Below, piece after piece: positions 13,778-62,922 of a DNA stretch of 64,000 bases. The position numbers and the translations under genes are program-made. The notes under the pieces are model-generated. The model worked only from the letters and a program-made list of their open reading frames with translations, was not told the DNA's origin and searched no databases. Position 1 is the stretch's first letter; every line of letters begins with the position of its first letter. Origin of the DNA: Pyrus communis (taxonomy: Eukaryota; Streptophyta; Magnoliopsida; Rosales; Rosaceae); assembly GCF_963583255.1 (NCBI RefSeq), contig NC_084819.1, positions 3,045,501 to 3,109,500 of the forward strand. Direction: 5' to 3'.

Positions 13778-14565
13778 TTAAAAGCTATAATCTGATTTGA
13801 GCACTCTTTTGCTTTTGGAGCCATCCATGAAACCCTTCAAACCTGCAACTCCAATGTTACCTTCGGCTTCAGCAGCAGCTTTTTCTAGAAGCACTTCTTC
13901 TTCAGTGGGCTTGAAAGCTGGATGGTTTAAAATGCTTTTAAGCAACTGGGTACCTCTCAAAGCATTTGTCAATGGCAGATGACCCTCCGGAGTGCTCTCA
14001 TTGAGCTCCCAGATGAACTCACCGGGAAAAGCCCTATAGTTGTATTGCAAAACTTCTGTGTCAAGCTTCTTCATCCACCCTACCTTGATGAAGAACTTGG
14101 TGAAGTCGTCGCCTACCTTGTCGTAAATTTTTTTCTGGACGCTGTACCCGAATTTGTTGTTGCTGTGCTGTCTCCATAAGGCGTCGATGGCTTGGAGGTC
14201 GGCTTCGGAGATGAACTGGACCTCGGAGAAGAAGACGTAGCCTCGCTTCTGGGCTTGTTCTCCGGCGAGGACTATGAGGAGGCGGCGGGTCTCCTCGTCG
14301 GCTTCGCGGAAGTTTTGGGCGGAGAGGTGTTGTTCTAGGAGGTCGAAGGAGGTGGCTTGGGTGGAGGAAGAGGGTGTGGAGAATGATGTGGTGGCGGAGA
14401 TTGAGAAAGTTTTGGTGGAGAATAGAGAGGGATGAGAGAGAGTGGAAGTTAGGGTGTTTGTGGTGGTCGGTTTAAGGAAGAAGGTGGAGGGAGCATTGTC
14501 TATATGGTGGTGGTGGAGGAGGGGTGAGTGGTGATTGTGGCGTATGGATTGGAAAGACTTGGCTG

Positions 14566-14569
<4 letters not shown>
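13778..14569 (-). CDS. GUN4: Tetrapyrrole-binding protein GUN4, chloroplast
   Basis: An intronless gene of 263 aa. The first 70 or so residues are rich in Ser, Thr, His and Pro with almost no acid, a chloroplast transit peptide. The GUN4 domain spans about residues 73-215: FDLLEQHLSAQNFREADEET, then LWRQHSNNKFGYSVQKKIYD, IKVGWM, YRAFPGEFIWELN and EGHLPLTNALRG. GUN4 binds protoporphyrin IX and Mg-protoporphyrin and stimulates Mg-chelatase (with CHLH) at the start of chlorophyll synthesis; it also takes part in plastid-to-nucleus signalling. The plant-type C-terminal extension after residue 215 is present and ends SKRVLKSDYSF, where a Ser near the end is phosphorylated in Arabidopsis. Everything looks intact. 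The (CT)n tract directly before the ATG lies in its 5' UTR. Confidence 0.97.
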
Positions 14570-18778: not shown

Positions 18779-35294
<16,516 letters not shown>

Positions 35295-35822: not shown

Positions 35823-36657
35823 TCAAAACTTCCCATCGTCTCTAATTGTCTTCATTTGGTTGACAACGACAGCAATAGGCATCCGCTCTCTAGGCGACAT
35901 TGCAGAGCAAGAAATTCCTATCTGCATTACTGAAACCAAACATTCCTCAAATCTTGTTGCATGGAGTGGAGCACGGTCACAATATCTTGTAATTGGTCTT
36001 TCTTGTATGTTATTACCGTATGTTTCATCATAATTGTCACCATCACCATCTGTTTCGAGGAGCAAAGAAGGGTCAACTACGTTCATGACATGGCAGGCAA
36101 CACTGTAGCTGCAAATTTGTGAATGCTTGGACCATCGTTGAACGTGTCGTCTGTAGGTCTTTTTCCAATGAAAAACATTGCTCGGCTTTAGATCATAGTG
36201 AACAATGGGAGTTTCGCAACGATGGTGGAGATATAGAAGCAACATCGATGGCAATATTCAATTTCTCCACAGTGCTCAATCTCTTGATTTGAGATTGCTC
36301 GTCTTTTGGATGCAACCATGAATCTAGGCTTTCGTTTTTCATGAACTTGAAAACTAGGCCTTTGAAGTCGTTACCTTGATTATCCATGCTTGAGCAAGCG
36401 GTTATGATCTCGAGAAGATTTTGATGCCTTATACTTCTTAAAGCTTTGCATTCATCAAAGAAACTCTCATACGCTCCTTGTTGATGAAGGTTTAATACCT
36501 TAATAGCAACTATCATTCTATCGCTAGGGAGTACCCCTTTGTAAACAAAATCAAAACTTCCCGAACCAATCAAATTGTCCACAGAGAACCCATTCGTTGA
36601 TTCGAGAAGTTCAGGGTAAGACACACCCGATTTATAATCTTTATAAGAATGTGCCAT
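35823..36657 (-). pseudogene. LRR receptor-like kinase (EFR/Xa21-type, subfamily XII) kinase-domain pseudogene
   Basis: The first part (36657 to about 36240) reads VSYPELLESTNGFSVDNLIG, then VYKGVLPSDRMIVAIKVLNL, ACSSMDNQGNDFKGLVFKFM and LSTVEKLNIAIDVA: the cytosolic kinase N-lobe of LRR-XII receptors. The glycine loop is GSGSFD, with Asp in place of the third Gly. Near 36240 the frame shifts and a few residues are lost, then YLHHRCETPIVHYDLKPSNV follows. After this the DFG segment and activation loop are deleted and frames are mixed until NVVDPSLLLE and the C-terminal MQIGISCSAMSPRERM. No extracellular LRR or membrane segment lies upstream. It is a truncated, dead copy. Confidence 0.88.
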
Positions 36658-39509: not shown

Positions 39510-42248
39510 TTAAAAATTATGCTGCAAGAATAACTTCTCTTGAGGTGATGCAGGTCCAATCTCTTCTTCCAAGCTCCTCAAGCCATCACCACCACTCCCA
39601 CAGTTGCCCAAATTTCTACCCTCTGTGGTCTTCCCATCGGCATCGGCATCTGAGGCCGATGACTTCCTCCTCTGGGAAGAAGCAACACTCGGAAATGTGA
39701 TCCATGAAGGAGCTCGGAATTCAAACCTTTGCGCGTCCTCCAGTTCTACCACATCAGTGTCGACTGACCTGTTTGAAGATTTTTGTGAGGATTTTTTGTG
39801 CATTCTACTGCTTCCCAATACCACCTCGGTTGGCAGAATAGGTTGCTCGTTACACGGGCTGCCCATTAGCATGGCAAGAGCTCGTTCTAGCGCTGTCGTC
39901 ACCTTGTCCATTGATGGCCTCTCCTTCCCTCTCATTCTCACACATTTGCAGGCTACATTGGCAATTCTTTTCAAGGCTTCAAGGTCAGGTGGGGGTTTCA
40001 AAACTGGATCCAAAATTGCACTTATGTCTCCTGACTTGATCAGAGGCACTCCCCATTCAACTATATTTCCGTCTTCATACTGCATATCGATGGCTTTTCT
40101 GCCACTAAGAATCTCCAAAAGCAAAACACCAAAACTATAAACATCAGATTTGGTTGTAAGGTAATGAAGTCTGTAGTACTCAGGATCAAGATACCCTAGA
40201 GTTCCGGCTGGTAGCTCTGCCAATGGGGAGCCACTGTCTGCAGGTCCCAGTAACGACAAACCAAAATCAGCCACTCGAGCATTGTGCTCCTCGTCAATGA
40301 GAATGTTTGAAGACTTAATGTCTCGATGAATCACCGGTGGGCAAGCATAACCGTGCAAGTATTCAATTCCCCGAGCTGCTTGGACTGCAATAGTGACCCT
40401 TCGCACCCAATCCAATTGCTCTTTCAAGGCTTTGTTCTTTCCGTGGAGATGCTGATGCAATGATCCATGAGCCATGAACTCATAAACAAGAAGACTTTGT
40501 CCGCCTTCTTCACAATATCCGAGCAGATTGAGTAAATGTGCGTGGTTTAATCGTGAGAGCAAGTCTAGCTCTGTATGGAACTCTTTCGAATTCTTTTGCA
40601 TGTTAGGAGACATTATAGCCCTTTTGACAGCAACAACTGTCCCGTCTTTTAAAACACCTCTGAAAACACAGGAGAAGCTTCCCTTTCCAACAACAGACTC
40701 CTCTCCAAAGCCGGCTGTGGCCCTTTCAAGCTCCTCATACGTGAACATCTGAGCTCTCCTTATCTTGAGGTCATCCAACTCGGGACGAATCTTACCATTG
40801 TCTTTCTGGAAAGATCCACCCTGACCATTCTTTTTCGAATTCAAATCTTTTCCTGTGCACTGACAGTTGCGTAATCTGTAGCGAACATATAAAATTGCAG
40901 TTATAGACACAACACTCACCAAGAACAGAGCAAAAGCAACCTCCGCAATAATGATAGGCAATTGCATGGACCAAAACCTTTCATTCTTCTTGCCATATGA
41001 AGATGAACAATTTGAGAAACATTCAGCTGAGTAACAAATAGAACAGTTATATTCACACTGTCTATCAGATTTCAAAGTACATCCGGTTTTTGGGTACATT
41101 TCATCTGGACAATCATTGCTGCACGGCATGCAAATATGAGAGTTAGGTAACTTGCAAGAGGCACTCTCATTACTGAGCTCATAGAAACCAGGAGCGCACG
41201 GAGTGGACTTGCAGAATCCAGGTGCCATAGGTAATGGAAGAGAAGTTGGGAATCCATGTCCCCAACAAACCGGTAAGAATGATTTGTCAGCAAGAATTCC
41301 ACAAGTGAAGTAATTTCCAGCAGCAATCTCATAAACCTTAGCACCATTAGGAGCCGGTGTACTTTGTTTCACAATAAACCCCCAACAAATCACCTCACGG
41401 TCATAGCTCTTAATTCCGCAAGCATGGAACTTCCCTCCGACAACTGAAAGCATTGGGTCATTTGGAGCCATATCAACATTGCCCTGACCTGAATATGCCA
41501 CTGAAATTTCTTCTTCCATGACCAAGCTTCTTCCCCAACAAACGGTTCTGGAATTCACAGGCTCCAAAATCCCACAAACATGATTCCCACCAGCTGAAAT
41601 CTTCCGAAACCTCATATCTTTGGGGATCAAGCTGATAACCCTGCTACTAGTCTCATCACCCCAGCAAAAGACAGTCCTGTTCTGGGCAAACAATCCACAA
41701 TTGAATTCTGAGCCAGCTGAAATCGACTGAATCTGCCCATCAAACACATAGTTTTTGGTCATGTTATATCCCCAACAATCAACAAAAGAAGTGTTTCTGA
41801 GCCTGCCAGTTAAAGGTTTTCGTAATCCACACAAATGATAATCACCAGCACTGATTTCTAAGTATTGAGCTTCTTTAACAATGGGTTGAGGGACACCCAT
41901 TTGGATATAACCACTGCTTCCCCAACAATATGGCTGGTTGGAATCCATGAGAAGTCCACAAACAAATCCATCACCAGCAGTTAAACCGATAAATGGGAAT
42001 CGATTAGGAGCCCCGTGTGTAATTGCTGAGTTTGATCCATAGCAGGTCACAAGATGAGACCCATCTAATTTTAACCCACAGAAAACTGGACCTTTCTCTC
42101 CATAAGAAACTGCAATGGCTGACATGGAACCTAGTCCTGAAGCTAAACACCATAAATCTGATAAAACTACAAGTTCAGCAAGAAATCCAGCTCTCAGTAT
42201 GCTGATATTAAGAACCCAGATCAGGAAATCATTTACTGAAAACCCCAT
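39510..42248 (-). CDS. ACR4: CRINKLY4-family receptor kinase ACR4
   Basis: An intronless gene of 912 aa, as expected for ACR4. Order: signal peptide (about 1-40); crinkly repeat domain (about 45-345) with seven propeller-type units, each with an AG-type turn and CWG or CYG (for example residues 108-110, 158-160, 195-197, 237-239, 288-290, 328-330); TNFR-like Cys-rich region (about 346-415); membrane helix (about 429-455); kinase (about 515-790) with VGKGSFSCVFRG, Lys542, HRDIKSSN (Asp643), DFG 661-663 and LGYLDPEYY; Ser-rich tail. All catalytic residues are present. ACR4 acts at the plasma membrane in epidermis differentiation, embryo and ovule development and root stem-cell control, where in Arabidopsis it works with CLV1 downstream of CLE40. 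A CRINKLY4-related (CCR) paralog is the alternative, but length, single exon and TNFR region favour ACR4. Confidence 0.95.
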   Translation of the reverse strand: MGFSVNDFLIWVLNISILRAGFLAELVVLSDLWCLASGLGSMSAIAVSYGEKGPVFCGLKLDGSHLVTCYGSNSAITHGAPNRFPFIGLTAGDGFVCGLLMDSNQPYCWGSSGYIQMGVPQPIVKEAQYLEISAGDYHLCGLRKPLTGRLRNTSFVDCWGYNMTKNYVFDGQIQSISAGSEFNCGLFAQNRTVFCWGDETSSRVISLIPKDMRFRKISAGGNHVCGILEPVNSRTVCWGRSLVMEEEISVAYSGQGNVDMAPNDPMLSVVGGKFHACGIKSYDREVICWGFIVKQSTPAPNGAKVYEIAAGNYFTCGILADKSFLPVCWGHGFPTSLPLPMAPGFCKSTPCAPGFYELSNESASCKLPNSHICMPCSNDCPDEMYPKTGCTLKSDRQCEYNCSICYSAECFSNCSSSYGKKNERFWSMQLPIIIAEVAFALFLVSVVSITAILYVRYRLRNCQCTGKDLNSKKNGQGGSFQKDNGKIRPELDDLKIRRAQMFTYEELERATAGFGEESVVGKGSFSCVFRGVLKDGTVVAVKRAIMSPNMQKNSKEFHTELDLLSRLNHAHLLNLLGYCEEGGQSLLVYEFMAHGSLHQHLHGKNKALKEQLDWVRRVTIAVQAARGIEYLHGYACPPVIHRDIKSSNILIDEEHNARVADFGLSLLGPADSGSPLAELPAGTLGYLDPEYYRLHYLTTKSDVYSFGVLLLEILSGRKAIDMQYEDGNIVEWGVPLIKSGDISAILDPVLKPPPDLEALKRIANVACKCVRMRGKERPSMDKVTTALERALAMLMGSPCNEQPILPTEVVLGSSRMHKKSSQKSSNRSVDTDVVELEDAQRFEFRAPSWITFPSVASSQRRKSSASDADADGKTTEGRNLGNCGSGGDGLRSLEEEIGPASPQEKLFLQHNF

Positions 42249-50287: not shown

Positions 50288-51632
50288 TCACACTTGCACA
50301 CGCCACTCATTGTACATATTCATAGCCAAAGTGTTTCTCCATGCAGTCCATTCTTGTGTAGGTTGAACACTGTCAATCATATCTTCATCATCATCACTAC
50401 TTTCAGATTCGTCCAAGTTTAGGATTTTATTTTCTATTGGATCATCTGACATATGCCTTCTAATAAGATTATGTAATAGGCAGCAGGCTGTCATAATCCT
50501 AAATTGTGTTTTAATTGGGAAAAATGATAGACCTCTTAAGATGCTTCAACGCATCTTAAGTAGTCCAAAACATCTCTCAATGACATTTCTAGCTTGAGCA
50601 TGTTTCATATTGAAATACTCCTCATGATTAATCGGGAGTCTTCTATTTCTCCACTCCGAGAGATGGTAACGCACTCCCCTATACGGTGCAAGGTATCCTG
50701 GACCCTTTGTGTACCCACCATCCATAAGGTAGTAACACCCTAACACACAAAAAAATGTATATTACTATATATAAGAAAAATGAGGATTCAAATTACTAAT
50801 ATAAACAAATAATCTATTGTTACCCGTGGGAACTTTTAATCCCGATGGTCTACTTATCGCATCTCAGAGTACTCTAGAATAAGATGCCGACCCTTCCCAA
50901 CCTGGGTACACAAATATAAAATTCATGTCCACATTACAGACTCCCAACATATTGGTCGCAATCTCTCCCTTTTTGATCGGTATCTTGGTAGGGACATGAA
51001 CGTTAATGTAAGTCCCATCCAATGCCCCCAAGCAATTCCTAAAAAAAATCATTAACATTAGTATGATCAATATATTTAATTACATTAATTTTAGAAGTAA
51101 TTTATATAAAATATGAAGAATACCTCAAACCAACTCCATTTAGAATCTGGGTGGGCATTAGGAATGGGTTCTGGCACTTTCAAAAGTGTACCTTGTAGCC
51201 TTAACACTCCATGTAGAATGGAATTGAAATATCTACTTATGGTATCCCCCGATCGACAAAACCTCCTCCCAATTGTACGATTCTTGACATGATGTGCAAG
51301 TATATGCAAAAACATGCAAACTTGTTCTTCCATTGTTACTACACCATCCAATTTTACTCTACCATGGTCAGGAAGCATTTGACATAAATAGTGGAACGTT
51401 CTTCTATCCATTCTAATTTGGTTCACACACTGAACATCATCATATCCTATTGTGCTATCTAAATAGGTTGACCCTACCATTCTCCTAACAATGTGCGATT
51501 TCTAAGTGCAAGTTGCCGATTCCGCCTTCTAGCTAAATTATGATTCTTGATGAACCACATCATCAACCAAGTCACAATATTCAAGTACCACACGTTAACA
51601 ATGAAGCATGCCACAATCTTTCTTTGATCCAT
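50288..51632 (-). pseudogene. Harbinger (HARBI1-like, DDE_Tnp_4) transposase, inactivated
   Basis: Starting MDQRKIVACFIV (51632), the frame runs to a TAG at 51474-51476; the homology continues in another frame with MVGSTYLDSTIGYDDVQC and IGRRFCRSGDTISRYF, so one base is missing or added near 51480. After an intron (51124 to 51038; phases differ by one) comes NCLGALDGTYINVHVP with the first catalytic Asp. A TGA at 50864-50866 stands where the motif VL-R-DAI has Arg. After the intron ending at 50740 come YYLMDGGYTKGPGYLAP (second Asp) and ARNVIERCFGLLKMR (Glu), then a TGA at 50546-50548 for Trp, and HNLIRR near the end. The DDE triad codons survive, but the gene cannot make a full protein. Confidence 0.9.
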
Positions 51633-58128: not shown

Positions 58129-58584
58129 TTAACTATCCCATAAGCGTCTTGAGTGAGGTTTCCGGTGAATATTGGCTTCCGTGGCCGAAGAAAGTGACGG
58201 CGATTCCTCAGGAGACCCTTCATGATTTGGACCAGAAGGCACAAGCCTCATAAGATCATAATTTGCACCTGAAGATGGTGGTGGCAGAGTATATACCTTC
58301 GAAGGTGGTTCTTCAGGAGACTCTTCATGGTTTGGACCAGAAGGCACAAGCCTCATAAGATCATAATTCGCAGGATCATCCAACACTTCTGCAGGCGGCG
58401 GTTGGACGACGCCATGTTTAGAATTTGGACCCCTAAGAACCTGCCTCTTGATCCAATACCTCAAGAGCCGATGTGGCTCAGCAAATTTGGTGGACTGTTT
58501 GTTTGGGGATCCTTGATCACCAATACAAGAGGAAAATAGAAAGAGAAGGCAAGTAACAAACAAGTGAGTCTTAGAAAACTCCAT
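58129..58584 (-). CDS. Secreted CLE-like precursor, proximal paralog with degenerate front motif
   Basis: An intronless gene of 151 aa. I start at MEFSKTHLFV (58584), because the matching ATG begins the paralog and a signal peptide follows directly (about 1-22, LFVTCLLFLFSSC); the in-frame upstream extension has no such conservation. The mature part has IKRQVLRGPNSKHG (residues 45-58), a CLE-like dodecapeptide in which Pro4 and Pro9 of the CLE consensus are lost. Then come two units with RLVPSGPNHEES (78-89) and RLVPSGPNHEGS (113-124), each preceded by ANYDLM. They keep the first eight CLE positions but not the PLHN end. The C-terminus HRKPHSRRL is shared with the paralog. A TATA-like CCTATAAGAAAG lies about 55 bases upstream. 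It may still be secreted, but an active CLE peptide from it is doubtful. Confidence 0.8.
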   Translation of the reverse strand: MEFSKTHLFVTCLLFLFSSCIGDQGSPNKQSTKFAEPHRLLRYWIKRQVLRGPNSKHGVVQPPPAEVLDDPANYDLMRLVPSGPNHEESPEEPPSKVYTLPPPSSGANYDLMRLVPSGPNHEGSPEESPSLSSATEANIHRKPHSRRLWDS

Positions 58585-62202: not shown

Positions 62203-62922
62203 TTAATTATCCAATAAGCGTCTTGAGTGAGGTTTCCGATGAACATTGGCTTCCGTGGCCGAAGAAGGTGATGGCAGTTCCTCAGGAGACTCTTCATGAT
62301 TTGGACCAGAAGGCACAAGCCTCATAAGATCATAATTTGCACGTGAAGATGGTGGTGGTGGAGTATATACCTTGGAAGGGGGCTCTTCAGGAGACTCTTC
62401 ATGCCCAGAAGGCACAAGCCTCATATTAAGATCATAATTTGGAAGTTCATCCAACACTTCTACAGGCGGTTGGACGAAGTGATGTAGAGGGTTTGGACCG
62501 GTAGGAACCTGCCTCTTTGATTCATAATTTGCAGGATCATCCAACACTTGTACGGGCGGTTGGACGAAGTGATGTAGAGGATTTGGACCGGTAGGAACCT
62601 GCCTCTTTGATTCATAATTTGCAGGATCATCCAACACTTGTACGGGCGGTTGGACGAAGTGATGTAGAGGATTTGGACCGGTAGGAACCTGCCTCTTTGA
62701 TTCATAATTTGCAGGATCATCCAACACTTCTACAGGCGGTTGGACGAAGTGATGTAGAGGGTTTGGACCGGTAGGAACCTGCCTCTTGATCCAATACTTC
62801 AAGAGTCGATGTTGCTCAGCAAGTTTGGTGGACTGTTTGTTTGGGGATCCTTGATCGCCAAAACAAGAAGAAGATAGAAAGAGAAGGCAAGTAACAAACA
62901 TGTGGGTCTTAGAAAACTCCAT
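62203..62922 (-). CDS. Multi-CLE peptide precursor, four identical CLE dodecapeptides
   Basis: An intronless gene of 239 aa. Start at MEFSKTHMFV (62922), which opens a signal peptide (about 1-22) and aligns with the paralog at 58129-58584; a longer in-frame start at 62964 would bury it. Four copies of RQVPTGPNPLHH lie at residues 47-58, 77-88, 107-118 and 137-148. This fits the CLE consensus R-x-V-P-x-G-P-x-P-x-H-x in every fixed place and is nearest, from memory, to the CLE40/CLV3 class. Each copy follows Lys (IK or ESK), a possible processing site, and is joined by FVQPPV-x-VLDDPANYESK. Two divergent units follow: RLVPSGHEES (168-177, lacking Pro-Asn) and RLVPSGPNHEES (201-212). The C-terminus is HRKPHSRRLLDN. 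CLE peptides are secreted, processed, and act on LRR receptor kinases in stem-cell and vascular control. The receptor and tissue are unknown here. Confidence 0.85.
   Translation of the reverse strand: MEFSKTHMFVTCLLFLSSSCFGDQGSPNKQSTKLAEQHRLLKYWIKRQVPTGPNPLHHFVQPPVEVLDDPANYESKRQVPTGPNPLHHFVQPPVQVLDDPANYESKRQVPTGPNPLHHFVQPPVQVLDDPANYESKRQVPTGPNPLHHFVQPPVEVLDELPNYDLNMRLVPSGHEESPEEPPSKVYTPPPPSSRANYDLMRLVPSGPNHEESPEELPSPSSATEANVHRKPHSRRLLDN
62425..62784 (-). repeat. Four-unit, 90-bp coding tandem repeat of the multi-CLE gene
   Basis: Units are 62695-62784, 62605-62694, 62515-62604 and 62425-62514. The middle two are identical over all 90 bases; the first differs from them at 3 places. The fourth keeps the CLE part but diverges in its last 10 codons. 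Confidence 0.97.

Follow-up and report, generated by a model that had tools for sequence, protein, structure and literature searches.

A pear gene whose predicted precursor carries four identical CLE motifs and two altered CLE-like cores

CLE prepropeptides usually comprise about 60-120 residues and carry their motif at or near the C-terminus. An open reading frame of Pyrus communis departs from this layout, with a 239-residue product in which CLE motifs span residues 47 to 148, and it raises the question of whether one pear gene may release several copies of the same CLE ligand and what else such a precursor might encode. The frame lies in the stretch of 64,000 nucleotides that we analysed (the window; C17:3045501-3109500 in our numbering of the genome). 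Precursors with several CLE motifs are described as a recognised exception to the layout with a single C-terminal motif (PMC2254619, PMC4526924), and the domains of published examples are given as lying about 30 residues apart (PMC2254619).

The original prediction for this locus was of four exact copies of RQVPTGPNPLHH on a 30-residue period, each directly preceded by lysine, and this anatomy was confirmed on the minus strand (Table 1). The plus strand has several stops in the frame of the same interval. All four motifs agree with the CLE pattern R-x-V-P-x-G-P-[N/D]-P-x-H-[N/H], and their period of 30 residues falls within the regular 24-35-residue spacing that marks multi-CLE frames with two or more motifs. 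The residue pairs before the motifs are IK, SK, SK and SK. The gene uses AGG and not CGN, and a DNA pattern starting with CGN gave no information. Array units 2 and 3 have the same DNA sequence, unit 1 differs from unit 2 at 3 of 90 bases and from unit 4 at 8 of 90, and the one base that varies when the four 36-nt motif copies are compared is silent (AAC/AAT). The unit has been duplicated recently, and the array would have grown by tandem duplication of these 90 bp inside a locally duplicated gene cluster.

Hydropathy makes a signal peptide plausible: the hydrophobicity peak of the protein is at residues 8-18 (mean Kyte-Doolittle 2.12, 11-residue window), compared with a best value of 0.27 outside the first 25 residues. 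The expectation of four identical peptides holds for the four motifs but passed over two variant cores that the precursor also holds, so that the protein in full comprises four identical CLE motifs plus two altered CLE-like cores. The latter end in xxx-[S/P]-P, which we call SP-type, and the C-terminal part that holds them would represent a second, conserved CLE-like repeat. The core at residue 168 is without the two codons for PN; the copies of the gene at 58 kb and at the third site carry PN or TN there.

We consider it likely that this is a plant multi-CLE prepropeptide gene which can release up to four copies of one CLE dodecapeptide. The precursor, if expressed as we presume, would enter the secretory pathway, where a protease may cut before the arginine that follows each lysine and after His-His. 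One A-type dodecapeptide, probably hydroxylated at prolines 4 and 7, would be set free in as many as four copies and would be read by a receptor kinase that we expect to be of the CLV1/BAM class. The intact frame in the assembly, the four exact motifs with their lysines, the hydrophobic N-terminus and the existence of Pyrus, Malus and Prunus proteins that resemble its product in N-terminus and repeats all support the predicted multi-CLE prepropeptide gene, as do the wider set of relatives found with a profile and the plan shared with published multi-CLE precursors (both below). An array that is not constant (P0001, below) and a rearranged third copy in the genome count against it.

Table 1. 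Features of the multi-CLE locus and its surroundings (window positions unless another contig position is given)
Feature	Position	Strand	Details
Multi-CLE prepropeptide ORF	62203..62922	minus	239 aa, single open frame, ATG at 62922
Hydrophobic N-terminus, probable signal peptide	62857..62922	minus	residues ~1-22, hydropathy only
CLE motif 1, RQVPTGPNPLHH	62749..62784	minus	aa 47-58
CLE motif 2, RQVPTGPNPLHH	62659..62694	minus	aa 77-88
CLE motif 3, RQVPTGPNPLHH	62569..62604	minus	aa 107-118
CLE motif 4, RQVPTGPNPLHH	62479..62514	minus	aa 137-148
90-bp tandem array	62432..62787	minus	4.0 copies, 96% matches
Shortened SP-type core, RLVPSG-HEESP	62389..62421	minus	aa 168-178; continues RLVPSG-HEESPEE
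SP-type core, RLVPSGPNHEESPE	62281..62322	minus	aa 201-214; RLVPSGPN-HEESPEE
Tandem paralogue ORF	58129..58584	minus	151 aa, 3.6 kb from main gene
Rearranged third copy	C17 3141.2-3142.0 kb (L010 4168-5017)		33 kb beyond main gene, outside window
CRINKLY4/ACR4-like receptor kinase ORF	39510..42248	minus	912 aa, 20 kb from main gene

The gene belongs to a local cluster. When the main protein was compared by tblastn with all 29 contigs of the genome (487 Mb), nine matches were obtained at E <= 10, five of which represent three places in the cluster on C17; the other four, on C4, C6, C10 and C5, are weak (E 0.011-1.2), and a motif scan around them found a CLE frame at C6 only. Used as queries, the proteins P0019 and P0010 yielded 5 and 4 matches, respectively, the best again in the C17 cluster and the others, on C4, C16 and C12, at E > 0.5. 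No second multi-CLE locus was seen in the genome with these three tblastn queries, a method that is weak for short motifs. The C6 open frame (L012 3107-3757), whose C-terminus is KRRVPTGPNPLHH, looks like an ordinary single-CLE gene.

Within the cluster, the paralogue at 58 kb has a degenerate first motif (RQVLRGPNSKHG) followed by two SP-type cores; the PLHH motif is absent. Its two blocks share 86-87% DNA identity with the main gene, and the 112 alignable codons give Ka 0.058 and Ks 0.148 (Ka/Ks ~0.39). A Fisher test on rounded counts for this pair yielded P = 0.049 and therefore provides only weak evidence of constraint. The third copy consists of two pieces. The first is a truncated 79-aa frame carrying RLVPSGPDADPA, with its own stop, and the second is a partial copy with RQVPTGPNPLHK and without the native start, in which the open frame begins with hydrophobic MFRFLSCLFWFW from former untranslated sequence. 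A split copy of this kind would be expected under birth-and-death decay, whereby a locus whose repeats expanded recently within a tandem cluster is weakly or not expressed and has little function. The degenerate first motif of the 58-kb paralogue, the weak constraint suggested by the Ka/Ks ratio and its P value, and the fewer intact motifs in P0001 are also consistent with decay, but the main frame is intact, its four motifs are exact and differ by a silent change only, and the plan is kept in Prunus and Rubus. We regard decay as an unlikely account of the locus.

Searching approximately 5.8 billion proteins with the main protein (E <= 1) returned five matches, representing Pyrus, Malus, two Prunus and one JGI protein. 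The closest, P0001 from another Pyrus, is 75% identical over 100% of the query. It has two intact motifs and one altered, RQVPTGPDAKPS, and its stretch AGSYRSKSSTSLR is an exact out-of-frame reading of units 2 and 3; together, this stretch and the fewer intact motifs suggest either that repeat number and frame vary between Pyrus or that the P0001 gene model has errors. A similar N-terminus and repeats are found among Rosaceae in P0001 (Pyrus), P0002 and P0006 (Malus), P0003 and P0004 (Prunus), and P0015, P0016 and P0034 (Rubus), and the hydrophobic stretch at the N-terminus is conserved in relatives. P0003, from Prunus armeniaca, has CLE-type units and then SP-type units, as in the main gene. 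None of these rosaceous relatives has four identical PLHH motifs, unlike the main gene, and their source names do not call them CLE.

Because similar secreted repeat precursors occur in Pyrus, Malus, Prunus and Rubus, chance resemblance is not an issue. The names given to such proteins invite another interpretation, namely a proline-rich secreted or wall protein with no signalling role and an incidental resemblance to CLE: P0001 is called a mitochondrial distribution and morphology protein 34-like in the database, and radish RsCLEm2 is described as formerly called PERK10 (PMC11172632). Four exact 12-residue A-type CLE matches with Lys-Arg before each would nevertheless be unexpected in a structural protein, and we give this interpretation almost no credence.

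A profile from seven sequences was also used (E <= 1), and in the scored set, the 7984 candidates sharing most words, it matched at least 67 proteins. The precomputed label PF27922.1 is present on 35 of the 67; hmmscan of the main protein against a Pfam library without PF27922.1 found no family at E <= 1, which counts against the multi-CLE reading. Among the named sources of the matches are legumes, Rubus (three genes whose tags are consecutive), Craigia, Cinchona, carrot, Heracleum, Solanum, Brassica, Arabidopsis halleri, Nelumbo, Vanilla, Oryza punctata and the fungi Dentiscutata and Cetraspora. The predicted proteins from these two arbuscular mycorrhizal fungi, P0042 and P0053, have three CLE motifs each; five CLE domains have been described for Gigaspora rosea and Globodera (PMC11538016).

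Cores were counted in the 67 matches and two window ORFs, 69 proteins in all. A strict core was defined as xxVPxGP[N/D] followed by five or more residues, and a CLE-type ending as x-x-H-[N/H/D/K]. The 167 strict cores comprise 115 SP-type, 37 CLE-type and 15 other (142, 50 and 27, respectively, in a looser scan), proportions that are biased because the query profile already held SP-type sequences. SP-type cores alone are present in 41 proteins and CLE-type cores alone in 10; 11 proteins are mixed, one has other cores only and six are without a strict core. The mixed proteins are the main gene product, P0001, P0003 (Prunus armeniaca), P0015, P0016 and P0034 (Rubus), P0012 (Sesbania), P0023 (Neltuma; a gene model fused to a transporter), P0009 (whose CLE-type core WLVPSGPNPDHN is doubtful), P0020 and P0026, while P0004 and P0007 are mixed in the loose scan only. 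So that the pattern would not define the result, every non-CLE strict core whose tail was long enough was examined, 128 in all, and serine occupies position 12 in 99 and proline position 13 in 116; proline is found at position 10 in five and at position 11 in one of the same cores. The ending ESPEE is kept in several cores between Pyrus and Prunus.

These counts bear on a reading that adds to the multi-CLE explanation and does not exclude it: the CLE and SP-type units might be two secreted signals from one protein, with the SP-type peptide acting as a CLE antagonist or through another receptor. The fixed register of serine and proline, the large share of SP-type cores, the retained ESPEE ending, and the occurrence of both types in one protein in Pyrus, Prunus armeniaca, three genes of Rubus argutus and Sesbania all speak for it. 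In addition, N8, I10 and N12 of TDIF are described as its C-terminal anchor on its receptor (PMC5383425); the SP ending replaces these anchor residues, and an SP-type peptide should therefore bind differently or not at all. A precedent for antagonism is the switchgrass PvTDIFL3-MR3, in which a motif altered at the last residue has been proposed to antagonise its neighbours (PMC8496505). Against this stand the bias that SP-type sequences in the profile introduced into the proportions, the lack of a known activity for an SP-type peptide and the loss of PN from one of the two SP-type cores in the main protein; legume multi-CLE papers, moreover, may have treated cores of this kind in their figures as ordinary CLE domains. 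We hold two signals from one precursor to be possible, if doubtful.

A broader proposal, which we offer only as speculation, is that R-L-V-P-[S/T]-G-P-N-P-[E/A]-[E/Q]-S-P-[E/D]-x-P represents a eudicot-wide second class of CLE-derived ligand, as yet undescribed, which multi-repeat precursors release. Rosaceous and some legume precursors of this kind would carry classical CLE dodecapeptides as well, such that the number of repeats sets the ratio in which one mRNA yields an agonist and its partner or antagonist, and the four CLE and two SP-type units of pear would reflect a recent shift in that ratio. A full-text literature search found no description of the SP-type ending spellings in text, although figures and supplements may show them. 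That search also included the 12-mer core QVPTGPNPLHH and gave text matches only to RLVPSGPN or RLVPTGPN, strings which in PMC4776436, PMC7552357 and PMC9670457 are part of LHN/LHH motifs or of lists of such motifs. The SP-type cores are possibly new. If they are real peptides, they would constitute a second signal, widespread and encoded alongside the CLE hormones, that has been missed because searches target the LHN/LHH ending.

The multi-CLE layout itself is well known, and the pear gene is a rosaceous addition to it. The original prediction placed such precursors in a few plants, which understates their distribution: 59 multi-CLE proteins in 27 species were counted by Goad et al. 2017, as cited in PMC8496505, and MtCLE14 is described as having four identical 12-aa CLE domains (PMC4526924). 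Among legumes, MtCLE14, GmCLE37a/b, LjCLE32/33/46/47 and MtCLE22/26/27 are given as having several CLE domains per precursor, like the main gene (PMC4526924, PMC5570945), and the Medicago and Lotus examples have 24-35-aa repeats with some genes in tandem, like the pear locus (PMC5570945); this likeness is one of domain layout as described. Crucifer BnCLEm and RsCLEm genes have near-identical tandem CLE domains, five in BnCLEm3 and eight per RsCLEm, and in light the BnCLEm products reportedly act on the shoot apical meristem (PMC11172632); they too are likened to the pear gene by the domain layout as described. In grasses, CLE75/76, CLE30/31 and PvTDIFL3-MR3 of rice, wheat and switchgrass carry regular CLE arrays after a signal peptide (PMC2254619, PMC8496505), but their motifs, as given there (REVPSGPDPITS, RPVPSGPDPIHH, HDVPSGPNPGSN), differ from the pear RQVPTGPNPLHH, PvTDIFL3 being TDIF-like, and SP-type cores were not found in the passages of these two papers that were compared. 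Multi-CLE genes are not reported from poplar (PMC4776436). No Rosaceae-wide CLE catalogue was among the matches listed in the literature search; a rosaceous catalogue by Cheng et al. (2021) is among the works that PMC12114883 cites.

The suggestion that four copies act as a dose amplifier is likewise not new, as signal amplification by such arrays was proposed in 2008 (PMC2254619). In the one test found, TDIF-like multi-motif PvTDIFL3 genes of switchgrass were placed in Arabidopsis and amplification was not seen (PMC8496505), and that multi-motif precursors raised no activity in this account is a further point against the multi-CLE reading. Little testing has been done on this class, to which the pear gene contributes an intact example holding four identical CLE 12-mers. 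Its difference in copy number from P0001 makes up a natural dose series in which amplification could be examined.

The identity of the putative ligand can be narrowed by its motif. RQVPTGPNPLHH is one residue apart from RLVPTGPNPLHH, the motif of poplar PtCLE21/31/39 (PMC4776436) and tomato CLE25/29 (PMC9670457), and is also one residue apart from RRVPTGPNPLHH, which ends the C6 open frame of the same genome, and from RTVPTGPNPLHH in the fungal P0042. It differs by two residues from CLE40 and by three from CLV3. The resemblance to CLE40/CLV3 that had been proposed gives way to this closer kinship, and a CLE40 or CLV3 identity was rejected on motif distance. LjCLV3 is tabulated with an intron (PMC5570945), unlike the main gene, which is one open frame.

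The receptor kinase ORF 20 kb away is CRINKLY4/ACR4-like. Its Pfam matches are kinase, RCC1_2 and TNFR_c6 (the last with a score of 25.4, below the cut-off of 29.4), database matches among the best 120 of 350 are named ACR4, and among the best 50 of 2587 candidates scored it is the sole full-length match in the genome, the next best having 36%. The main gene could be imagined as the counterpart of CLE40, in linkage with the ACR4 receptor of that peptide, since a review places CLE40 upstream of CLV1/ACR4 (PMC12114883), the window holds this single full-length ACR4-like ORF, and matches to both genes lie on a 47,941,709-base contig in Prunus armeniaca and on a 49,759,023-base contig in Canavalia (equal size taken as the same contig). 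However, the locus tags are about 1800 apart in Canavalia (27326 vs 29136) and about 720 apart on a contig of the same size in Rubus (018897-018899 vs 019617), and tight CLE-ACR4 linkage is therefore not conserved there. The motif, moreover, has nearer matches among other A-type motifs than in CLE40, and the proximity was noticed after the fact. Such a ligand-receptor neighbourhood is very improbable, and the proximity is probably fortuitous.

The window has other features besides. By eye, two overlapping ORFs at 35823-36657 on the minus strand resemble fragments of a single receptor-like kinase, whose gene may be broken. On the same strand, an ORF at 51091-51480 resembles a Harbinger/PIF-type transposon protein, and a 263-aa ORF at 13778-14569 resembles the tetrapyrrole-binding protein GUN4.
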